Below are positions 17,517 to 28,584 of a DNA stretch of 30,346 nt, one piece after another. The notes beneath the pieces are model-generated. The model ran no database searches, had not been told where the DNA came from, and saw only the letters and a program-made list of their open reading frames with translations. Every line of letters begins with the position of its first letter. Position 1 is the first letter of the stretch. Both the position numbers and the translations under genes were made by a program. The stretch spans positions 1 to 30,346 of the IMG/VR virus record IMGVR_UViG_3300020055_000103. One strand, 5' to 3'. The stretch comes from a virus.

Positions 17517-17546
17517 ATGTATAGTTTTTCATCTTATTTAAATGAA
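17517..17546 (+). other. Capsid-targeting-like peptide, ligase-like protein
   Basis: Encodes MYSFSSYLNE followed by DA. T4 internal proteins start MKTYQEFIAE and are cut by gp21 after glutamate 10. Here the aromatic and aliphatic positions and E10 coincide, and L-N-E fits the [LI]xE cleavage rule. Confidence 0.6.
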
Positions 17547-18776
17547 GATGCCCAAGGGAAGAATCTTCACCTAGAACACCTAGAAGACGAAATTATTAAT
17601 TTCGGAATTGGTGGGGCTAGGGGCGCAATTAATTTTTTACAGTCTTTGCGTGATATGCTTTCTGGTAGTTCTCGTTCCTCTGTTCACATGACAGTGAAGT
17701 GGGATGGGGCCCCTGCTATCTTTGCTGGTGTAGACCCCTCGGATGGGAAGTTTTTTGTCGCAAAGAAGTCTGTGTTCAACAAAACACCGCTACTATATAA
17801 GACAAAAAAAGAAATACAAGACGATGCTAAACTACCACAAGCATTGAAAATTCCTTTTAGTATCGCATTAGAAGAATTTAGCAAACTCGGTATCAGGGGA
17901 GTTCTACAGGGTGATTTGATGTTTACCTCTGGTTCCCTTGAAACCGAGACCATTGATAATGTTAGGTATACAACATTTCAACCAAATACAATCGTTTATG
18001 CAGTTCCCCGTGGTTCTGATCTTGACAATCAGATAAGGGCTGCGAGAATTGGTGTTGTATGGCATACCACATATACTGGCAACAGTTTGCAAAATATGCA
18101 AGCGTCTTTTGGTGCAAATATCAGTGGTCTCAAAAAAATAAAAAGTGTGTGGATGGATGATGCTAGTTATCGTGATGAAAGTGGCACTGCTACCTTTACA
18201 AAATCTGAAACTGCATCGGTAACTGCAAAACTTTCCGAGGCAGGAAAGTTATTTCGCAAAATCGATGCTGTACAGTTAAAGAATTTTATGAGATTGCAGT
18301 CTGCTTTGGAAGCTGATAGTAAAACTACTGGCGCTACACTCAAAACATACAATAACTCCAAAGTTAGGGTTGGAGAGAAAATTGCCAATGTTTCCACCCA
18401 TGTTTCTGGTTATGAAACTTGGGTGTCGGAAAAGTTTGACCTTGCTGCTAATAAACTAAAGACCCCCGATGCAAAGAAGAGAGTGGAGAAAAAGAAAGTA
18501 GAAACTCTCAGAGAAATAAAAAAACATAGGGTTTTACTTGGAAATATTGTTGCTTTTCAAAATGCTCTGGTAGATGCGAAGATGATTATTGTGAGGAAAC
18601 TAAATTCTATCAAACAGTTGATGGATACTTTTGTTCGCACCAAACAGGGATTCAAGGTTGTCAATCCAGAAGGTTATGTTGCTATCGATAGAGTTGGTGG
18701 TAATGCAGTTAAACTTGTTGACCGCATGGAATTCAGTTACAATAATTTCACTGCAATCAAGGCGTGGGACAGATGA
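17517..18776 (+). CDS. Ligase-like nucleotidyltransferase with capsid-targeting N-terminus
   Basis: 419 residues. The first ten, MYSFSSYLNE, resemble the T4 internal-protein capsid-targeting peptide. The body shows ordered motifs of the ATP-dependent DNA/RNA ligase superfamily: motif I VKWDGAP (candidate AMP-accepting K61), FVAKKS after it, GVLQGDLMF (128-136, motif III-like), IVYAVPRG (motif IIIa-like), EGYV (385-388, motif IV-like) and VKLVDR (398-403, motif V-like). The region 230-370 between these is helical and basic, an insertion compared with short ligases. Homologues in marine T4-like phages are unannotated or DUF-labelled. Ligation or another nucleotidyl transfer is inferred. There is no Shine-Dalgarno sequence. 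The NMNAT-like gene overlaps the stop. Confidence 0.75.
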   Translation: MYSFSSYLNEDAQGKNLHLEHLEDEIINFGIGGARGAINFLQSLRDMLSGSSRSSVHMTVKWDGAPAIFAGVDPSDGKFFVAKKSVFNKTPLLYKTKKEIQDDAKLPQALKIPFSIALEEFSKLGIRGVLQGDLMFTSGSLETETIDNVRYTTFQPNTIVYAVPRGSDLDNQIRAARIGVVWHTTYTGNSLQNMQASFGANISGLKKIKSVWMDDASYRDESGTATFTKSETASVTAKLSEAGKLFRKIDAVQLKNFMRLQSALEADSKTTGATLKTYNNSKVRVGEKIANVSTHVSGYETWVSEKFDLAANKLKTPDAKKRVEKKKVETLREIKKHRVLLGNIVAFQNALVDAKMIIVRKLNSIKQLMDTFVRTKQGFKVVNPEGYVAIDRVGGNAVKLVDRMEFSYNNFTAIKAWDR

Positions 18777-19417
18777 GAATAAAAGAAGAAAAAGAAAAAC
18801 ATATCGTGTTTGCATTTGGAAGAATGAATCCGCCTACTGCTGGTCACAGTAAATTGGTAGACAAGGTTCATGCAGAAGCAAAATCGAGGAATGCTGATCA
18901 TAGAGTTATAGTTAGTCACTCTCAGGACAAACACAAAAACCCGCTCTCAGCAAAACAAAAATTGAGGTATCTCAAACATGTTCATCCCCACGGAAAGTTT
19001 GAAGCATCTTCGCAATCCCATCCTCACTTTTTTGCACACCTCAGTAAAATGCACCAAGAGGGTCACACCCATGTCACAATGGTGGCAGGATCAGATCGTG
19101 TTCATGAATTCCAGAAACTTGCAGACAAGTATAATGGCAAAAAGGGTTCTCACGGATATTATAAGTTTAAGCACCTCAAAGTTGTATCTGCTGGTGCTCG
19201 TGATCCTGATGCTTCGGGTGTTGCTGGAATAAGTGGAACAAAGATGCGATCTCACGCATCTAACAATGATTATAAATCTTTTAAGTCTGGTTTGCATAAG
19301 AACACCTCTCATGAAGAGGCAAAAAAATTGTTCCATGCTACCAGAAAAGGTATGGGTCTTCATGAAGACCAAGTGAGAATGTCCTTTTCAATGTTTCTGA
19401 AGGAGTCAAATAAATGA
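18773..19417 (+). CDS. NMN adenylyltransferase-like nucleotidyltransferase
   Basis: 214 residues from the ATG overlapping the previous TGA by 4 nt. It is a Rossmann-type adenylyltransferase: FAFGRMNPPTAGHSKLV (13-29) carries the TxGH version of the HxGH nucleotide site, VTMVAGSDRVHEF matches the central strand of NMNAT/NadM proteins, and GISGTKMRS (152-160) is the ISxTxxR signature. Such enzymes join NMN and ATP to make NAD+. Histidine is unusually frequent. The C-terminus ends MSFSMFLKESNK, resembling a capsid-targeting peptide. A role in restoring NAD+ or in supplying a packaged enzyme is inference. There is no NAMPT gene in the window. Confidence 0.85.
   Translation: MRIKEEKEKHIVFAFGRMNPPTAGHSKLVDKVHAEAKSRNADHRVIVSHSQDKHKNPLSAKQKLRYLKHVHPHGKFEASSQSHPHFFAHLSKMHQEGHTHVTMVAGSDRVHEFQKLADKYNGKKGSHGYYKFKHLKVVSAGARDPDASGVAGISGTKMRSHASNNDYKSFKSGLHKNTSHEEAKKLFHATRKGMGLHEDQVRMSFSMFLKESNK
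19378..19414 (+). other. C-terminal capsid-targeting-like peptide of the NMNAT
   Basis: Encodes MSFSMFLKESNK at the very end of the NMNAT-like protein, in frame and directly followed by its stop. The pattern x-F-x-x-F-L-x-E matches the N-terminal peptides of the genes at 17517, 20450 and 22759. Confidence 0.5.
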
Positions 19418-19860
19418 ACAGAGAGGCAGTATACGAACAATTAAAGATAGACGAGGGTGTAGTGTATGAAATCTACAATGATCACCTTGGATATCCTACT
19501 TTCGGAGTCGGACACCTCATCGTTGAGGGTGACGAGGAGATCGGAAAACCAATTGGAACTCCAGTGGACGAAGAAAGAGTCAGAGAGGTATTTGATAGAG
19601 ATTTGGAGACAGCAATCCGAGAATGTGATGCTTTATACGGGGAGGGGTGTTTTCGAGATTTTCCCGATGAAGTCCAGCAGATATTGGTCAACATGATGTT
19701 TAATATGGGACGTACCCGATTATCCAAGTTTAAAAAAATGAATGAAGCTCTCTTAGAGGGTGATTGGAAAAATGCCGCAGTAGAGGGAAGAGATTCTTTG
19801 TGGTATAAACAGGTCACCAACAGAGCAGAGAGGTTGATGAGTCGTTTGGAGTCAGTATGA
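19414..19860 (+). CDS. e: T4-type lysozyme (GH24 endolysin)
   Basis: 148 residues (T4 lysozyme has 164). The N-terminus aligns with T4 gpe: IDEGVVYEIYNDHLGYPTFG, giving catalytic E14, D23 and T29 for T4 E11, D20 and T26, then VGHLIVEGD. The C-terminal lobe has ILVNMMFNMGRTRLSKFKKM and RDSLWYKQVTNRAERL, both typical. It hydrolyses peptidoglycan and is probably released to the periplasm by a holin. There is no signal peptide. The ATG overlaps the NMNAT TGA, and GAAGGAG lies 11-17 nt upstream. It is about 6 kb from the spanin and holin-candidate genes. Confidence 0.95.
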   Translation: MNREAVYEQLKIDEGVVYEIYNDHLGYPTFGVGHLIVEGDEEIGKPIGTPVDEERVREVFDRDLETAIRECDALYGEGCFRDFPDEVQQILVNMMFNMGRTRLSKFKKMNEALLEGDWKNAAVEGRDSLWYKQVTNRAERLMSRLESV

Positions 19861-20228
19861 AAGGTTTTTTAGTTGGTGTTTTAACAACGGTATTGGTTGG
19901 GTGTTCTAGCCTTAGCAATTTAATACCAGATAAGTTTGATAATGTGGAATATGGTAATTTGGTACACTTGGGTGTAATTTCAGAAAACACAAAGGATTGT
20001 TCCTCAGACCAGATTCAACTGGCATGGTCTTATTCTGCTTTCTTGGAAAAGTATTCAGAACATACCATGAACGAAACAAATCAAAAAATCTATACACAGA
20101 TTCATGATCTAACCACTGAGTTGAGAAACAGACAAGACCCGTCTGAGGGTTATTGTAGAATCAAGTGGGGAAATATTTCCTCTATAGTAGAAGAGGCACT
20201 TGCCGTAGCTGGGAGTAGAATGAAATGA
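19857..20228 (+). CDS. Small lipoprotein, unknown
   Basis: 123 residues coupled to the lysozyme gene by ATGA overlap. The signal peptide MKGFLVGVLTTVLVGC has a lipobox LVGC with cysteine 16. The mature part is helical with two further cysteines (TKDCSSDQ and GYCRIKW). An envelope location is likely, and the position after lysozyme suggests a lysis or exclusion role. It is not the o-spanin partner of the gene at 12215 by position. Function unknown. Confidence 0.72.
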   Translation: MKGFLVGVLTTVLVGCSSLSNLIPDKFDNVEYGNLVHLGVISENTKDCSSDQIQLAWSYSAFLEKYSEHTMNETNQKIYTQIHDLTTELRNRQDPSEGYCRIKWGNISSIVEEALAVAGSRMK

Positions 20229-20440
20229 GCGAAGACGCATTAATTAAGAAGTACGAACAAAAAGTCAGAGAACTCAATGAACTCTTAGACGGTGGTATGA
20301 TTTCCCAAGATGAATACGAAGAACTTGTTCAAGACTTTACTGATATCGAATCAATCAGAGAAGATATTAAAGATGAGAGTATGAAAATTCTTGCTGCTAA
20401 GGTTGTTGATGCTATCTCTAAGTTAGTTAAGGTATTATAA
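20225..20440 (+). CDS. Small helical protein, SHOCT-like pattern
   Basis: 71 residues, ATGA overlap with the lipoprotein gene. The middle, LNELLDGGMISQDEYEELVQ, has the SHOCT-like pattern of a short helix, G-x-I-[ST], then EEY/F. The rest is helical with an amphipathic end (KVVDAISKLVKVL). The TAA stop lies inside the late promoter at 20436. Function unknown; SHOCT segments often mediate oligomerisation. Confidence 0.65.
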   Translation: MSEDALIKKYEQKVRELNELLDGGMISQDEYEELVQDFTDIESIREDIKDESMKILAAKVVDAISKLVKVL

Positions 20441-20443
20441 ATA
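20436..20443 (+). promoter_or_regulatory. T4-type late promoter abutting the kinase polyprotein gene
   Basis: Exact TATAAATA whose positions 3-5 are the TAA stop of the upstream gene; 6 nt separate it from the ATG at 20450, predicting a leader of 0-1 nt. Confidence 0.7.
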
Positions 20444-20449
20444 GTCCTT

Positions 20450-20491
20450 ATGGATAAGACTTTCAAAGATTTTCTACCTCTAGAAGAAGGT
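20450..20491 (+). other. Capsid-targeting-like peptide, kinase polyprotein
   Basis: Encodes MDKTFKDFLPLEEG. The F-x-x-F-L core matches T4 MKTYQEFIAE, and L-E-E before G fits the gp21 rule ([LI]xE, then a small residue). Confidence 0.6.
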
Positions 20492-22762
20492 GTCAATGAC
20501 CCTGCCATCTTCAAAGCGGTTTTCTTAGCCGGCGGGCCTGGTAGCGGTAAGTCATTTGTCGTTGGACAAACTGCACTGTCTACTTTTGGGTTAAAGACTG
20601 TCAACTCTGATGATGCGTTTGAGAATGCATTAAAGAAAGCTGGAGTTATGCAATCATACTCTTCTAGAAGAGACCCGGCGAAAAAAGCAATTACTGACTT
20701 CATCTCTAGCCCAAAAGGTCAGGCGATGCGTGACCGAGCAAAATACATAACTAATAAAAGGCAAGACCAATATATTGAAGGGCGTCTTGGTCTTGTCATT
20801 GACGGTACTGGTAAAGATTACGCTAAGATAGAAAAACAGAAAAACGCACTTGAGACTCTAGGTTACCAGACAATGATGATTTTTGTCAATGCTGACAGAG
20901 AGACTGCTAGAAAAAGAAATGCAAATCGATCCAGAACTATTGACAATGTTTCACTGGGTTTCATGTGGAAAGAAACACAAAAGAATATTGGTAAGTTTCA
21001 GAACTTGTTTGGAAACGATTTTGTTATTATTGATAACTCAGAGGGTTCAGACTATCAAAGTGGAATTATGCACGCCTATCGCAAGGTTGGTCGGTGGGTA
21101 AAAACTTCCCATAATTATATCGCTCAACGATGGATTCGTGACCAAAAACAACAGAGGGGCATAAGAGAAGACCTCCGTAATTGGTTTAGTAAAGATCATC
21201 CCAAAGGTGATTGGGTTCGTGTAGGTACGGATGGAGAAATCAAAGGTCAATGTGCAAGAGAGCCTGGCGAAGGTAAACCCAAGTGTATGCCGAGACAAAA
21301 GGCACACAGTATGGACAAGGACGATAGGGCGACTTCTGCCAGACGCAAGAGAAGAAAAGACCCCGTTGCCGATAGAAAGGGCAAGGGTGGTAAACCCATC
21401 ATGGTCAAGACGGATGTCAAAGAGGCAGCAAAACTTTCTGCAGCAGAACGTCTCAATAGACGACTCAAAACTCACCACGGTATAGATTTGGAAGCCCGTC
21501 AAAAGTTTTATACGGATATGATCAAGAAAATGAAGGATACTTCTGCAAAAGCAGTTGATTCCTCAAAAACTCAAAAAGAAACATTTCAGTGGATGAAAGA
21601 CCCACTTGCCAAAACTGTTCATAGAGTTCACTATAACACCGCACTCAAAACTCTGAAACCTATTATCGATAGAAAGAAGAGAGAAGGTGGCGGCAAACTC
21701 AAACACGGTATTGAATACTATGCTGCACAAGTAGCAAGAACGATTTCCGACAAGGTTGATGCTAGAACTCTGGCAAAAATGTATCAGAAGGAAGACAAAC
21801 AGATTAGTCGATACGAGTGGGGAAGACCAGAAGGTACACAATACTTCAAGGCCTTGACTCCAGGCGAACCAGGCTCTACTACCAAGAAAAATCAAACCAC
21901 CAACAAATATCACTACAAAACAAAGATCGAAGAAGGTGAGAATCATTCGTGGAAAACCGATGGTCACTATAAGAAAGATGGTACTGAATGGAAGGGTGAT
22001 CAACACGCCCACGATGGACAAGTTATGACTGGTAAGAAACACACAAAGGATAGTGAAAACCTATATCACTTCAAAGACCTTGGCCAAAAAGCTAGACAGA
22101 TGGTTCTTGATAAACTAAAAATAAAAGAACACTGTGGATGTGAAGAAGAGATGGAAGTTTTGGAAATGGATGTTGATTCTATCTTCACATCGGAAGATAT
22201 TGCCGACATGGAAGTTCAAATTGACAATATGGATTTTGATGAGATGATAGGTCTGGGTATGTACGATTCAGAAGAATTAGAAGACTTTGATTCAGCAGAA
22301 GAAGATGACGATGAAGAATCAGATATTCACGACAACGTGGACATTCTTGAAGCCCTGTCTATTCAAGGTAGAATGAAGAGGCGTTTTAACGCTAGAAGAA
22401 ACAGACAGAAACTCAAAGTTGCTAGAATGAGAGCATCTAGGAGAGCCGCCGATCCTGCTAGGGTTAAGAGAAGGGCAACTCGTGGTGCAAGAAACATGAT
22501 TAAGTCCAGACTTGCTAGAGGGAGAGACATGTCTTCCATGCCTCCTGCCGAAAAGGCTAGAATTGAGGCTATGTCAAAACGATTTACAGGACTGATCTCT
22601 AGACTTGCACAGAGAATGGTTCCAATCATTAGAAAGAATGAATTGAAACGACTTACATCTACCAACAAAAAACCACAGAAGGCGAAGAAGTATAAAGCTT
22701 CATCCGCAAAGTCTTCTGCTTCGGCACAAAAGGCTAAGAAATTTAAGGTGAAAAAGAAATGA
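20450..22762 (+). CDS. Zeta-toxin-like kinase fused to basic virion modules
   Basis: 770 residues. Order: capsid-targeting-like MDKTFKDFLPLEEG (1-14); a P-loop kinase (about 20-215) with Walker A LAGGPGSGKS (K34), VIDGTGKD and a lid-like RETARKRNANRSR, resembling zeta-toxin/kinase folds; a module around 238-305 with GDWVRVGTDGEIKGQCARE and CMPRQKAHSM, which recurs in phage proteins; further basic segments; a very acidic stretch (about 564-630); and an extremely basic C-terminus (635-770). Possible prohead-protease sites are LEE|G (13), IRE|D (240), IEE|G (495) and ILE|A (634). I infer a packaged polyprotein. The kinase substrate is unknown. There is no Shine-Dalgarno sequence. Arginines in the basic tail are nearly all AGA/AGG. 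Confidence 0.75.
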   Translation: MDKTFKDFLPLEEGVNDPAIFKAVFLAGGPGSGKSFVVGQTALSTFGLKTVNSDDAFENALKKAGVMQSYSSRRDPAKKAITDFISSPKGQAMRDRAKYITNKRQDQYIEGRLGLVIDGTGKDYAKIEKQKNALETLGYQTMMIFVNADRETARKRNANRSRTIDNVSLGFMWKETQKNIGKFQNLFGNDFVIIDNSEGSDYQSGIMHAYRKVGRWVKTSHNYIAQRWIRDQKQQRGIREDLRNWFSKDHPKGDWVRVGTDGEIKGQCAREPGEGKPKCMPRQKAHSMDKDDRATSARRKRRKDPVADRKGKGGKPIMVKTDVKEAAKLSAAERLNRRLKTHHGIDLEARQKFYTDMIKKMKDTSAKAVDSSKTQKETFQWMKDPLAKTVHRVHYNTALKTLKPIIDRKKREGGGKLKHGIEYYAAQVARTISDKVDARTLAKMYQKEDKQISRYEWGRPEGTQYFKALTPGEPGSTTKKNQTTNKYHYKTKIEEGENHSWKTDGHYKKDGTEWKGDQHAHDGQVMTGKKHTKDSENLYHFKDLGQKARQMVLDKLKIKEHCGCEEEMEVLEMDVDSIFTSEDIADMEVQIDNMDFDEMIGLGMYDSEELEDFDSAEEDDDEESDIHDNVDILEALSIQGRMKRRFNARRNRQKLKVARMRASRRAADPARVKRRATRGARNMIKSRLARGRDMSSMPPAEKARIEAMSKRFTGLISRLAQRMVPIIRKNELKRLTSTNKKPQKAKKYKASSAKSSASAQKAKKFKVKKK

Positions 22763-23043
22763 AAACTTTCCTAGAATTTTTGGGCGAAGAAGGTATGAAG
22801 GGTATGACCGTCAAGGGTGGTCATAAACTTCCTGTTAGCAAAGGTGCTGGCTTAACCAAAAAAGGTGTCGAAAAGTATCGCCGCCAAAACCCAGGCTCTA
22901 AATTGCAAACCGCAGTTACTACTCCGCCCAGTAAACTAAAGCCTGGTAGCAAAGACGCAAAGAGACGCAAATCATTCTGCGCTCGATCTCGTAGTTGGAC
23001 AGGCGAAAGAGGTAAGGCCGCAAGAAGAAGGTGGAACTGCTAG
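22759..23043 (+). CDS. Internal-protein-like, DUF6321-type basic protein
   Basis: 94 residues, ATGA overlap with the previous gene. The start MKTFLEFLGEEG is nearly the T4 IP targeting peptide (MKTYQEFIAE), with E10 conserved. The rest is strongly basic: GAGLTKKGVEKYRRQNPGSK, then RRKSFCARSRSW and a terminal RRRWNC, a pattern I recall as DUF6321, found in large viruses and phages. After cleavage the product would be about 84 residues, the size of a T4 internal protein. Packaging with DNA is inferred; its action in the host is unknown. Confidence 0.72.
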   Translation: MKTFLEFLGEEGMKGMTVKGGHKLPVSKGAGLTKKGVEKYRRQNPGSKLQTAVTTPPSKLKPGSKDAKRRKSFCARSRSWTGERGKAARRRWNC

Positions 23044-26463: not shown

Positions 26464-28584
26464 ATGCCAGTTGAAAGAAATATCAGGGATATTCTTGCTT
26501 CTGGACAGACAGACCTATTGGAAGCAGATATGTCAAGAAGACTTGATATGTTGGTCAGACAGGGTTTGATGTCAACAGGCAAACTTCCCATCCTAAAACG
26601 TGGTTTAGAAAAACTACAAATGGGAAAAGTTGGAACGCCACAGGAAAGAGATGCAGTAAACACTCTGTTGAATTCTATGATGTATATCGTTCTTGGTGAC
26701 GATACGGTATTTCAACGGGCAAGACAACACACCCAAAAGAATCGCTATCAGACCGAAGAGAGTGAGATCAACTCGGCCGATGAAAGTGATGATGTAGAAC
26801 TGAATGAATGGGAAACATTTTTGTTGGACATTGAAACTCTTGAAGAGAAGAATGTCCCAACAAACCCAAAATTGTGGTCTAAGTATAAGTCGCAGGCAAA
26901 ATCAAAGTTTGATGTCTACCCTTCTGCTTACGCCAATGGTTGGGCCGCCAAGATGTATAAAAAGGCCGGTGGTAGTTGGAAGACTGTCAGTGAAGAAGTT
27001 GACACTGGACAGTATGATGCAAGAAAGAAACCGCAGTCCAGTGAAAAGGAAAAACAAGCTGTTTTCGACAAGCATCGTGAAAGGATGAAAAAACTAAAGA
27101 AAGAAGAAGTCGAACTTGACGAAAAGTTAGAAACAGAACGCATTAAACATCCAGTTGGCAAAAGACCCCCAGGCATAGGGTGGACTCTTAAACAGGCGGG
27201 TGAACAAACTGGAAAAGACCATAGTGTGTGGGAACGCAAATTCAAAAGAGTAAAACCCACAAACGAAGAAACAGAACTTGACGAAAAGATCGAAGACATG
27301 GACATGGGTGAAGTTATCAAAGACTTCCAAAAGTCTGATGCCCCTCAGTTTAAAGGTAAGTCAAAAGAAAAAAGAAGAGAGATGGCAATTGCCGCTAAAC
27401 TCTCCAAAGAAGAGACCGAAGAGGAAACTACTGTGAACACGAACAACCCCTTTGCTGCAGCTAAGAAGGCAAAATTAGACGAGTATAGAACTAAGAACCC
27501 TGCCGCCGATGCAGAAGATTCTCGCCAACGTGCCAAGAAGGCTGCTGAGAGACTTTCTCGTAAAGTTGCAAAGACCGAGAAGGAAACAGACCCAGGCATC
27601 AAGGAAGAAGTCGAAATTGAAGAGGGTATGACTGCAAAAGATATTAAGATGGGCGTGGGTATTGCTCGTGATAAGAGATATGCTGGTGGAAACATGACAG
27701 GTGCATCTAAGGCGATGGAAAAGGTCAAGAAAGGTCTCTCTGATCATCCTCGTGTTAGGAAAGAATTGCAGAAACAGAACGAAGAGTCTCAAGAAGATTC
27801 TGTTGATGAAATCGCAGAAATGTCCTACAAAGAAAAGTTTCAGGCCATGTTGAAGAAAACTGGCAAGTCTCTTGCATCAATGTCTGACGAAGAGAAGAAG
27901 AAGTTTTTCAACAGTGTAGATGACGCACACAAGGCGAAGAACGAAAACTACACCATGAAGAACTCTTACGCTAAGTCTGGCAAGATGTCAAAGGATAAGG
28001 AATCACATGACACGGGTGGTTTCCGTATTTCTAACAAAGATGCCGCTGCTGCAAAGGATAGACTCAAGGCGAAGAAGGGTATCAGTGAAGTTGCAATCGC
28101 TGGTATCAACGCACCTTCACAGGGTGGTACTCGCAAAGAACTTCTCGACAAACTTAGAAAAAATCCAAAAGACACTAAACTTGCAAACTCTGCTTGGAAG
28201 GCTGGTGCAACTAGCAAAGAGATCAAAGGTGCCATTGCCAACGAAGAGATTGAAGAGAGCGCTGCTAACAGGGCTTTTGCTCAGGCAAAAAGAGATTACG
28301 ATGCGGATGACAAGAAAGGTCTTGCTCCTACCAAGAAAGACTCTAAACCCGCAAAAGTCAGTGACGCATCTAATGCAAAAGAAATCGAACACATTGTACC
28401 TCAGATGCGAAAAGCAATTACTGTTGGTAAAGAGGTTCAGTTTCAAGATGGGAAGACGCACAAGATCAGCAAGGGCCATGCTGCCAAATTTTTGAACAAG
28501 TATATGAACAGTAAACCTGCTGACAAACATAAGATGCAAACGTCTGCCCATAAGAGTCACGATCACTTTATGAAGCATGTATAA
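26464..28584 (+). CDS. Modular virion polyprotein with prohead-protease-like sites
   Basis: 706 residues, highly charged. Segments include a helical N-terminus (1-110), a DUF5872-like module with FDVYPSAYANGWAAKMYKKA (133-172), a RPPGIGWTLKQAG module, SDAPQFKGKSKEKRREMAIA (291-310), DKRYAGGNMTGASKAMEKVK (403-422), MSYKEKFQAMLKKTGKSLAS (453-472) and a C-terminal module with VQFQDGKTHKIS. Between them stand acidic [LI]xE motifs: LLE20, LNE115, LEE128, LDE220, LDE273, LDE340, IEE387, IAE452 and IEE598. That spacing suits cutting by a gp21-type protease into short basic peptides. Packaged cargo or a scaffold core is inferred. Supported by GGAG and a late promoter. Confidence 0.75.
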   Translation: MPVERNIRDILASGQTDLLEADMSRRLDMLVRQGLMSTGKLPILKRGLEKLQMGKVGTPQERDAVNTLLNSMMYIVLGDDTVFQRARQHTQKNRYQTEESEINSADESDDVELNEWETFLLDIETLEEKNVPTNPKLWSKYKSQAKSKFDVYPSAYANGWAAKMYKKAGGSWKTVSEEVDTGQYDARKKPQSSEKEKQAVFDKHRERMKKLKKEEVELDEKLETERIKHPVGKRPPGIGWTLKQAGEQTGKDHSVWERKFKRVKPTNEETELDEKIEDMDMGEVIKDFQKSDAPQFKGKSKEKRREMAIAAKLSKEETEEETTVNTNNPFAAAKKAKLDEYRTKNPAADAEDSRQRAKKAAERLSRKVAKTEKETDPGIKEEVEIEEGMTAKDIKMGVGIARDKRYAGGNMTGASKAMEKVKKGLSDHPRVRKELQKQNEESQEDSVDEIAEMSYKEKFQAMLKKTGKSLASMSDEEKKKFFNSVDDAHKAKNENYTMKNSYAKSGKMSKDKESHDTGGFRISNKDAAAAKDRLKAKKGISEVAIAGINAPSQGGTRKELLDKLRKNPKDTKLANSAWKAGATSKEIKGAIANEEIEESAANRAFAQAKRDYDADDKKGLAPTKKDSKPAKVSDASNAKEIEHIVPQMRKAITVGKEVQFQDGKTHKISKGHAAKFLNKYMNSKPADKHKMQTSAHKSHDHFMKHV

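Follow-up and report, generated by a model that had tools for sequence, protein, structure and literature searches.

Within 5.5 kb of a marine virus sequence, three proteins of unrelated families begin with almost the same short peptide. The window analysed here is a 30,346-base virus record, and its tags, putative cut sites and the proteins that carry them lie on the + strand. It carries the peptides MYSFSSYLNE at the start of a DUF6267 protein (17517..17546), MDKTFKDFLPLEE at the start of a kinase-bearing protein (20450..20488) and MKTFLEFLGE at the start of a DUF6321 protein (22759..22788). A preliminary description had read these three peptides correctly, compared them with the capsid-targeting peptides of the T4 internal proteins, and proposed that the proteins are packed in the phage head. 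We consider it likely that a Kyanoviridae-like marine phage does pack the tagged proteins into its head as cargo, by a system of the T4 internal-protein type, and that a finished set of proteins probably enters the host along with the phage DNA.

The comparison with T4 is a specific one. According to PMC9026906, residues 4 and 7 of T4 IPIII serve targeting and residues 8 and 10 serve processing; Asp at position 10 stops processing and leaves targeting, and the prohead protease gp21 cleaves after L/I-X-E. Set against these positions, the DUF6267 tag has F4, Y7, L8 and E10. Aromatic residues occupy positions 4 and 7 in two of the three N-terminal tags, the third being shifted in register by one residue and ending LEE before GVND. 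E10 is kept in two of the three, as had been noted, and all three end in (L/I)xE, namely LNE, LEE and LGE. The T4 start previously given for comparison, MKTYQEFIAE, holds for ipII and ipIII but not for ipI, which starts MKTFKEFTSTTTPVSTITE.

A 165,637-base IMG/VR record, here called G001, matches the window over 30,345 bases at 99.967% and is a record of the same virus. Among isolates, the window's DUF6267 protein is matched best in the Melnitz methylophages (63.7% identity), which belong to the Kyanoviridae, and the source is a Kyanoviridae-like, T4-like marine phage. In the comparisons that follow, IMG/VR scans cover the best 80 of at least 600 rows each, and open reading frames (ORFs) come in most scans from a greedy caller and not from annotation, S-CREM2 being represented by its 219 annotated coding sequences (CDS). 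The published sources drawn on are PMC9026906, PMC10665884, PMC9602691, PMC9146016, PMC3037559, PMC3012670, PMC9391042 and PMC9004378.

The tag was written as the pattern ^M.{1,3}[FYWH]..[FYWH][ILVM].{1,3}E, which was taken from the original finding and set before any relative was scanned. It matches 3 of the 46 ORFs of the window, and in G001 it matches 4 of 209, these being the three named proteins and one other. Since mirrored and re-spaced control patterns match 3, 1 and 2 ORFs of G001, the count in a single genome proves little, and it was discarded as too weak a proof. Across 85 related contigs, selected around DUF6267, the pattern matches 94 of 1165 ORFs, 41 of these belonging to DUF6267, whereas the mirrored and re-spaced patterns match 6, 5 and 1, and here the count is far above chance. 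When the Glu is swapped for K, S or D, there remain 52, 20 and 28 matches in the 1165 ORFs, and swapping the aliphatic residue leaves 10, because the loose spacing admits residues beside the Glu; on its own, the pattern is thus better evidence for the aromatic-aliphatic spacing than for the Glu. By family, it is found in 42/83 DUF6267, 3/5 DUF6321 and 6/45 NMNAT proteins, in 32/977 (3.3%) of ORFs outside the tagged families, and in none of 202 N-termini from 13 other families of the fetched contigs.

The positions that function in T4 are those conserved here. Among 115 unique DUF6267 tags, aromatics occur at the two targeting positions with frequencies of 0.68 and 0.62, and at no more than 0.10 elsewhere, and an aliphatic residue stands two before the Glu in 0.88. 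The 39 NMNAT tags behave in the same way (0.72 and 0.56, at most 0.15 elsewhere, aliphatic 0.82). The aligned stretches were chosen to end in hydrophobic-or-polar-x-Glu, so that the Glu and in part the aliphatic residue are built in; the aromatics are not. Immediately upstream of the domain, [LI]xE is present in 58 of 65 N-terminal kinase copies (14.7 in shuffled sequences) and in 139 of 142 DUF6267 copies (shuffled 37.2).

The matching protease, a search for which had been suggested, is encoded by the same virus: gp21 is at 72168-72809 of G001, 54% identical to Melnitz gp21, with PF03420 at an expectation value (E) of 2.5e-41. G001 also encodes gp23, 73% identical to that of Melnitz. The search for gp22 gave less: between gp21 and gp23 lies a 406-residue ORF in which a short stretch looks, on visual inspection, like Melnitz gp22.

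Published virion proteomes of three relatives bear directly on packaging. The sets used were the 52 proteins of Table 3 for S-CREM2, the 30 proteins of Table 1 for S-SZBM1 (the text of that paper names a few more as detected), and 48 GenBank 'virion protein' labels for S-SCSM1, where the paper states 45. Just 3 of the 219 S-CREM2 CDS match the pattern, and all three were detected (p=0.013): the SAM hydrolase gp6 (MKDFDSFLEE), the APH-like kinase gp14 (MKRFDAFLTE, from a GTG start) and the NMNAT gp154 (MKNFSSFLTE). The association has p=0.0022 among the 193 non-structural CDS, 0.010 among those of at least 100 residues and 0.047 at 200 or more. The NMNAT is likewise both tagged and detected in S-SCSM1 (MKSFLQFLKE) and S-SZBM1 (MRFRQFIIE). 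A citidylyltransferase cluster, T4-GC190, is listed as detected in the S-SM1 virion; the S-BM3 record labels its own NMNAT T4-GC_190, and that protein starts MKTLKFFLE, outside the pattern, and adjoins a protein other than DUF6267. Of the proteins with a DUF6321 region, S-CREM2 gp137 was detected and S-SCSM1 gp29 is labelled a virion protein, while S-SZBM1 gp192 starts MKTFKQYITE and ends in such a region. Pooled over the three proteomes, 6 of 14 pattern matches were detected against 124 of 719 other proteins (p=0.024), and a strict-register pattern gives 4/7 (p=0.021). S-CREM2 gp13 (MKDLHSFLTE) and gp136 (MQTFSMFFSE), both detected, have tag-like starts that were recognised only post hoc; a pattern broadened to admit them, and thus built after seeing the data, gives 7/16 (p=0.013). 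In S-SZBM1 the untagged DUF6267 protein gp141 was not detected, and the adjoining tagged NMNAT was, which fits, as one case. A profile of DUF6267 cores, run on S-CREM2 and S-SZBM1, was set aside as noisy (7 of its top 15 detected, p=0.038). Because the functional positions are conserved, gp21 is present in the same virus and a tagged NMNAT is found in three published virion proteomes, packaging is well supported.

The NMNAT of the window carries its tag at the other end. This nucleotidyltransferase gene (18764..19417; PF01467, CTP_transf_like, E 6.9e-5; PHROG 3041, E 2.8e-64) probably starts at the ATG at 18773, which overlaps the DUF6267 stop. Its motif GRMNPPTAGH is intact, residues N22, P23, P24, G27 and H28 being invariant in 8 sequences, and motif and family profile agree in placing it among the NMNAT-like nucleotidylyltransferases. 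It ends in MSFSMFLKESNK (19379..19414), just ahead of the stop at 19417, as the preliminary description had it. What that description had not recognised is that short NMNATs as a group conserve the C-terminal tag. Among 59 unique sequences, a relaxed core (aromatic-x-x-aromatic-aliphatic) lies in the last 22 residues of 22 of the 23 short NMNATs, window included, where shuffling gives a mean of 0.81 and a maximum of 5; seven of these 22 have Gly or Asp in place of the Glu. In the 36 unique long NMNATs the core is at the C-terminus in 2 and before the domain in 17 (shuffled 2.6), and in other ORFs of at least 80 residues it is C-terminal in 120 of 2368. With the strict motif, applied to 62 ORFs, the last 30 residues match in 17/25 short and 0/37 long NMNATs, and the region before the domain in 1/25 and 18/37. 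Cleavage behind the Glu would not remove a tag that sits at the C-terminus, and therefore its processing, if any, would differ. The C-terminal tag has no proteome support, because S-CREM2 contains none of the strict form and the two such ORFs in each of S-SCSM1 and S-SZBM1 were all undetected; S-SCSM1 gp93, labelled a virion protein, ends RTFKEFLEYIE, which merely resembles the tag. It is worth adding that a 52-residue module lies right behind the tag in NMNATs and in cyanophage genes annotated as serine/threonine kinase. It is found in the S-SCSM1 NMNAT (L102:39846-40001) and in 104 phage records, and by eye also behind the tags of S-CREM2 gp12 and gp14, and may be a second, common cargo module.

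A number of observations weigh against head packaging and must be set beside this evidence. The association between tag and detection is modest: the pooled value is driven by S-CREM2 (3/3), and neither S-SZBM1 (1/6) nor S-SCSM1 (2/5, one of which is probably structural) reaches significance by itself. S-SCSM1 gp30 and S-SZBM1 gp191 and gp192 are tagged and undetected, though all three are small and the S-SZBM1 table holds only 30 proteins; the greedy scan did not pick up gp192, which would count as one more undetected match. A profile of 57 unique DUF6267 cores gives p=0.052 for the non-structural S-CREM2 proteins. The tags themselves are uneven: those of the kinase are less sharp (n=57; aromatics 0.44 and 0.49 at the targeting positions, with two further positions reaching 0.30 and 0.28), those of the basic module described below are weak (0.33 and 0.14, n=21), about half of the long NMNATs have no strict tag at either end, and S-BM3 has no pattern match among 208 ORFs. 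The expectation that homologues would share the peptide holds for positions 4 and 7 of DUF6267 and NMNAT proteins, and less clearly for those of the kinase and the basic module. DUF6267 is untagged in P-RSM6, as well as being untagged and undetected in S-SZBM1 (gp141), its motif was not found in S-CREM2 or S-SCSM1, and no published virion detection of it was found. For the window-type kinase none was found either, this family not having been searched for in S-SZBM1, P-RSM6, S-CREM2 or S-SCSM1, and the literature yielded no proteome of the present phage. Virion proteomics, which had been suggested as the check, speaks through published tables and GenBank labels for tagged proteins of some relatives, and not for DUF6267. 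Our confidence is lowered because the DUF6267 and kinase families are without virion evidence, and because only about half of the long NMNATs are tagged N-terminally; the T4-type targeting and gp21 processing that had been proposed are nevertheless well supported.

Two longer proteins suggest, a point that had also gone unremarked, that the system includes polyproteins cut by gp21. The kinase-bearing protein (20450..22762) has 770 residues and, by Pfam and PHROGs, consists of a P-loop kinase, a WVR/CAREPGEGKPKC module (M5), an acidic linker and a basic C-terminal module. The kinase matches Zeta_toxin (E 8.3e-9) and AAA_33 (E 5e-8), and its P-loop GGPGSGKS is intact; the module after it is basic and cysteine-bearing; the linker has a net charge of -26 over 60 residues and the basic domain +40 over 141. 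The basic module, 21-27% identical, stands alone as a gene in Melnitz (MKKFSELTSELIE) and in C48C1 (tag MLSFKQFVSE). An untagged protein of 706 residues (26464..28584), a candidate polyprotein, is built of small modules common to relatives and contains 15 [LIVM]xE sites. Single modules of it are matched in S-BM3, Melnitz, P-TIM68, Sf-CH8 and others. In S-BM3 one protein joins modules of both the 770- and the 706-residue proteins with a DUF6321 domain; there a module of the 706-residue protein adjoins one of the 770-residue protein, and KKSFKDFTE stands just before DUF6321.

If these chains were cut, sites should recur where the modules join. For each module, the position of the Glu was set from N-terminal copies and then checked in internal copies; copies were deduplicated by identical upstream sequence only, so that kinship inflates the significance. 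Hydrophobic-x-Glu is found at the same position in 22/32 internal copies of the kinase, 23/31 of the basic module, 9/11 of M5 and 5/5 of M6, against a background of 3-6%. In the window the putative gp21 sites are IRE before the WVR module (21161..21169; N-terminal copies 2/2, the M5 counts including the window), ILE before the basic module (22343..22351; N-terminal copies 17/40, background 3%) and LEE before the VPTNP module, M6 (26839..26847; N-terminal copies 1/1, window again included). The aromatics at the two targeting positions are scarce at internal junctions (basic module 0.04 and 0.00, kinase 0.32 and 0.09, M5 0.25 and 0.00, M6 0.00 and 0.20) where the cut sites are kept, as would be expected if a chain is targeted a single time and then cut at every joint. 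Other modules tell against cut joints: the site has no fixed position in M8 (0/18), and is in place in only 4/18 internal copies of DUF6321 and 2/7 of NMNAT. M8 does have [LI]xE in 11/18 internal copies (shuffled 4.6), at no fixed position; internal NMNAT copies show no excess (2/7, shuffled 1.6); M7, a single copy, has no junction site. A run on the DUF6267 junction selected a Glu inside the domain and was not used.

It is possible, though we think it the less probable case, that the tagged proteins are packaged at full length and that the internal hydrophobic-x-Glu junctions are uncut acidic linkers or domain starts. Glu by itself makes up 9-20% of these stretches, the kinase junction Glu may be part of the kinase domain itself, M8 lacks a fixed position, and [LI]xE is present in as many as 82 of the 202 control N-termini, where 60.6 are expected. 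Yet for most modules, shuffling with composition preserved does not reach the observed counts, and in four of them fused and free copies alike have hydrophobic-x-Glu at a single constant position.

The identity of the attached domains bears on a second alternative. Pfam matches these domains to DUF6267, CTP_transf_like, Zeta_toxin or AAA_33, and DUF6321. The DUF6267 protein (17517..18776; 419 residues; PF19782, E 5e-99) has a KWDG motif, K61, W62, D63 and G64 being invariant in 29 of 29 aligned sequences. Its AlphaFold model has a mean pLDDT (predicted local distance difference test) of 76, and Foldseek found no match to the model at E 0.001. VIA-align aligns RNA/DNA ligases over approximately residues 55-222 of the model (1xdn, Z 6.6 over 126 residues at 3.8 A; 6n0v, 5.6; 6vtd, 5.2), scores below Z 8 that may mean little, and its top rank is an unrelated transporter (Z 6.7), with DnaK at 6.3. 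We tentatively call the protein polynucleotide-ligase-like. The DUF6321 protein (22759..23043) has 94 residues and a net charge of +19, and matches PF19846 at E 3.3e-12 (47.3 bits against a cut-off of 28.5). Since smaller phages, such as the T7-like S-TIP28 and Pelagibacter HTVC010P, have DUF6321 too, the domain is not confined to this head system. That the packaged proteins serve head assembly, as scaffold or core, with enzyme folds that are incidental, would accord with the basic and DUF6321 modules, to which Pfam and PHROGs assign no activity, and with the T4 core proteins, which are also cut by gp21 at (L/I)xE (PMC9026906). The invariant KWDG motif, together with the NMNAT and kinase P-loop motifs kept in alignments, makes this improbable.

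Slightly less probable still is a third case, in which the enzymes are auxiliary and work only after infection, inside the cell, while the peptides are leaders without targeting and virion detection is carry-over. Two proteome papers name carry-over as possible (PMC9602691, PMC10665884), and the untagged relatives and the modest association agree with this reading. Against it, the same positions are conserved in unrelated families, the pattern is absent from the 13 control families, all three S-CREM2 pattern proteins were detected, and short NMNATs keep their C-terminal core.

For the preferred reading, head-packaged cargo, the sequence of events would be as follows. Aromatics 4 and 7 of the tag would bind the prohead core, and gp21 would then cut after the Glu of (L/I)xE, freeing the protein inside the head, which it would later leave together with the DNA. 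In a chain, the targeting residues would be required in the first tag alone and a cut site would suffice for the modules behind it, and the 770-residue protein, and perhaps the 706-residue one, would act as polyproteins. A C-terminal tag could also target, the cut site then being optional. All of these steps, from binding of the core through cleavage to injection, are inferred, as is an action in the host straight after entry, for which NAD and nucleic-acid ends are the probable targets. The conservation of targeting and processing positions, the gp21 gene in the same virus, the junction pattern and the presence of the NMNAT tag at either end are observed here, and tagged NMNAT and other tagged proteins have been found by others in purified virions of relatives.

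Phages counter both NAD-depleting and tRNA-cutting defences. A more speculative proposal, which we put forward as a possibility with the odds against it, is that marine T4-like phages employ a two-part code, consisting of a targeting signal at either end and a separable gp21 cut site by which chains of modules yield many head-packed proteins, and that the cargo so loaded is an injected repair kit. The ligase-like protein and the P-loop kinase would mend cut RNA and the NMNAT would restore NAD, before any phage gene is read; these roles are suggested by motif and enzyme class.

Of the known systems, the T4 internal proteins IPI, IPII and IPIII are the closest, with an N-terminal targeting peptide, aromatics at 4 and 7, an aliphatic residue at 8 and Glu10 (sequence read in ipII and ipIII). 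They differ in being small basic proteins, whereas the window has a ligase-like protein, an NMNAT, a kinase and chained modules. T4 Alt is a head-packaged enzyme that is ejected and is cut by gp21, at its C-terminus too (PMC9026906); it is an ADP-ribosyltransferase, and the likeness drawn here is one of description. The ejection proteins of SPN3US, a giant Salmonella phage, are likewise reported to be head cargo processed by a prohead protease, again compared by description. The NMNAT-like virion proteins of cyanophages S-SM1, S-SCSM1, S-SZBM1 and S-CREM2 belong to the same broad nucleotidylyltransferase family and were detected by mass spectrometry (MS), and the available parts of their published accounts do not discuss a targeting peptide. 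NMNAT-like proteins in cyanophage virions were already in print; a link between a capsid-targeting peptide and these enzymes was not found in searches of an open-access library. The present analysis adds three things: targeting and cutting use separable positions in proteins of unrelated families, putative cut sites recur where modules join inside longer proteins, and the tag can stand at the C-terminus. From the sequence rule it may be possible to foretell which proteins are packed into the heads of marine T4-like phages, and the rule would explain why certain enzymes, suspected of being contaminants, turn up again and again in cyanophage virions. If it is true, some supposed auxiliary metabolic genes would be reclassed as injected proteins.

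Some further genes are worth recording. Within the tagged cluster of the window lies an untagged lysozyme-like gene (19414-19860; PF00959, E 1e-8; best PHROG a tail lysozyme). Beside DUF6321-bearing genes, S-SZBM1 and S-SCSM1 have small proteins of 105-106 residues with strong tags (MKSFKSFLSE, MKTFKQFMSE; L099:26311-26628 and L101:44215-44535), which were undetected by MS. S-CREM2 gp12 (L093:7704-10313), annotated Cas9/Csn1 and detected in the virion, has a tag-like FASFMAE at residues 19-25, noticed after the fact; should the annotation be correct, the phage would be packaging a nuclease. The Melnitz gene upstream of DUF6267 (L001:12203-13288) starts MQGFKTFLSE; its family matches the pattern in 4 of 19 members, and no window ORF clusters with it. 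Residues 7-15 of a 1287-residue ORF of G001 (reverse-complement coordinates 56074-59937) read PTFKEYIKE, a stretch that escapes the N-terminal pattern. Finally, a RimK-like ATP-grasp protein of Melnitz (L001:82-1131) starts MTQKFSQFITE and is another tagged enzyme.

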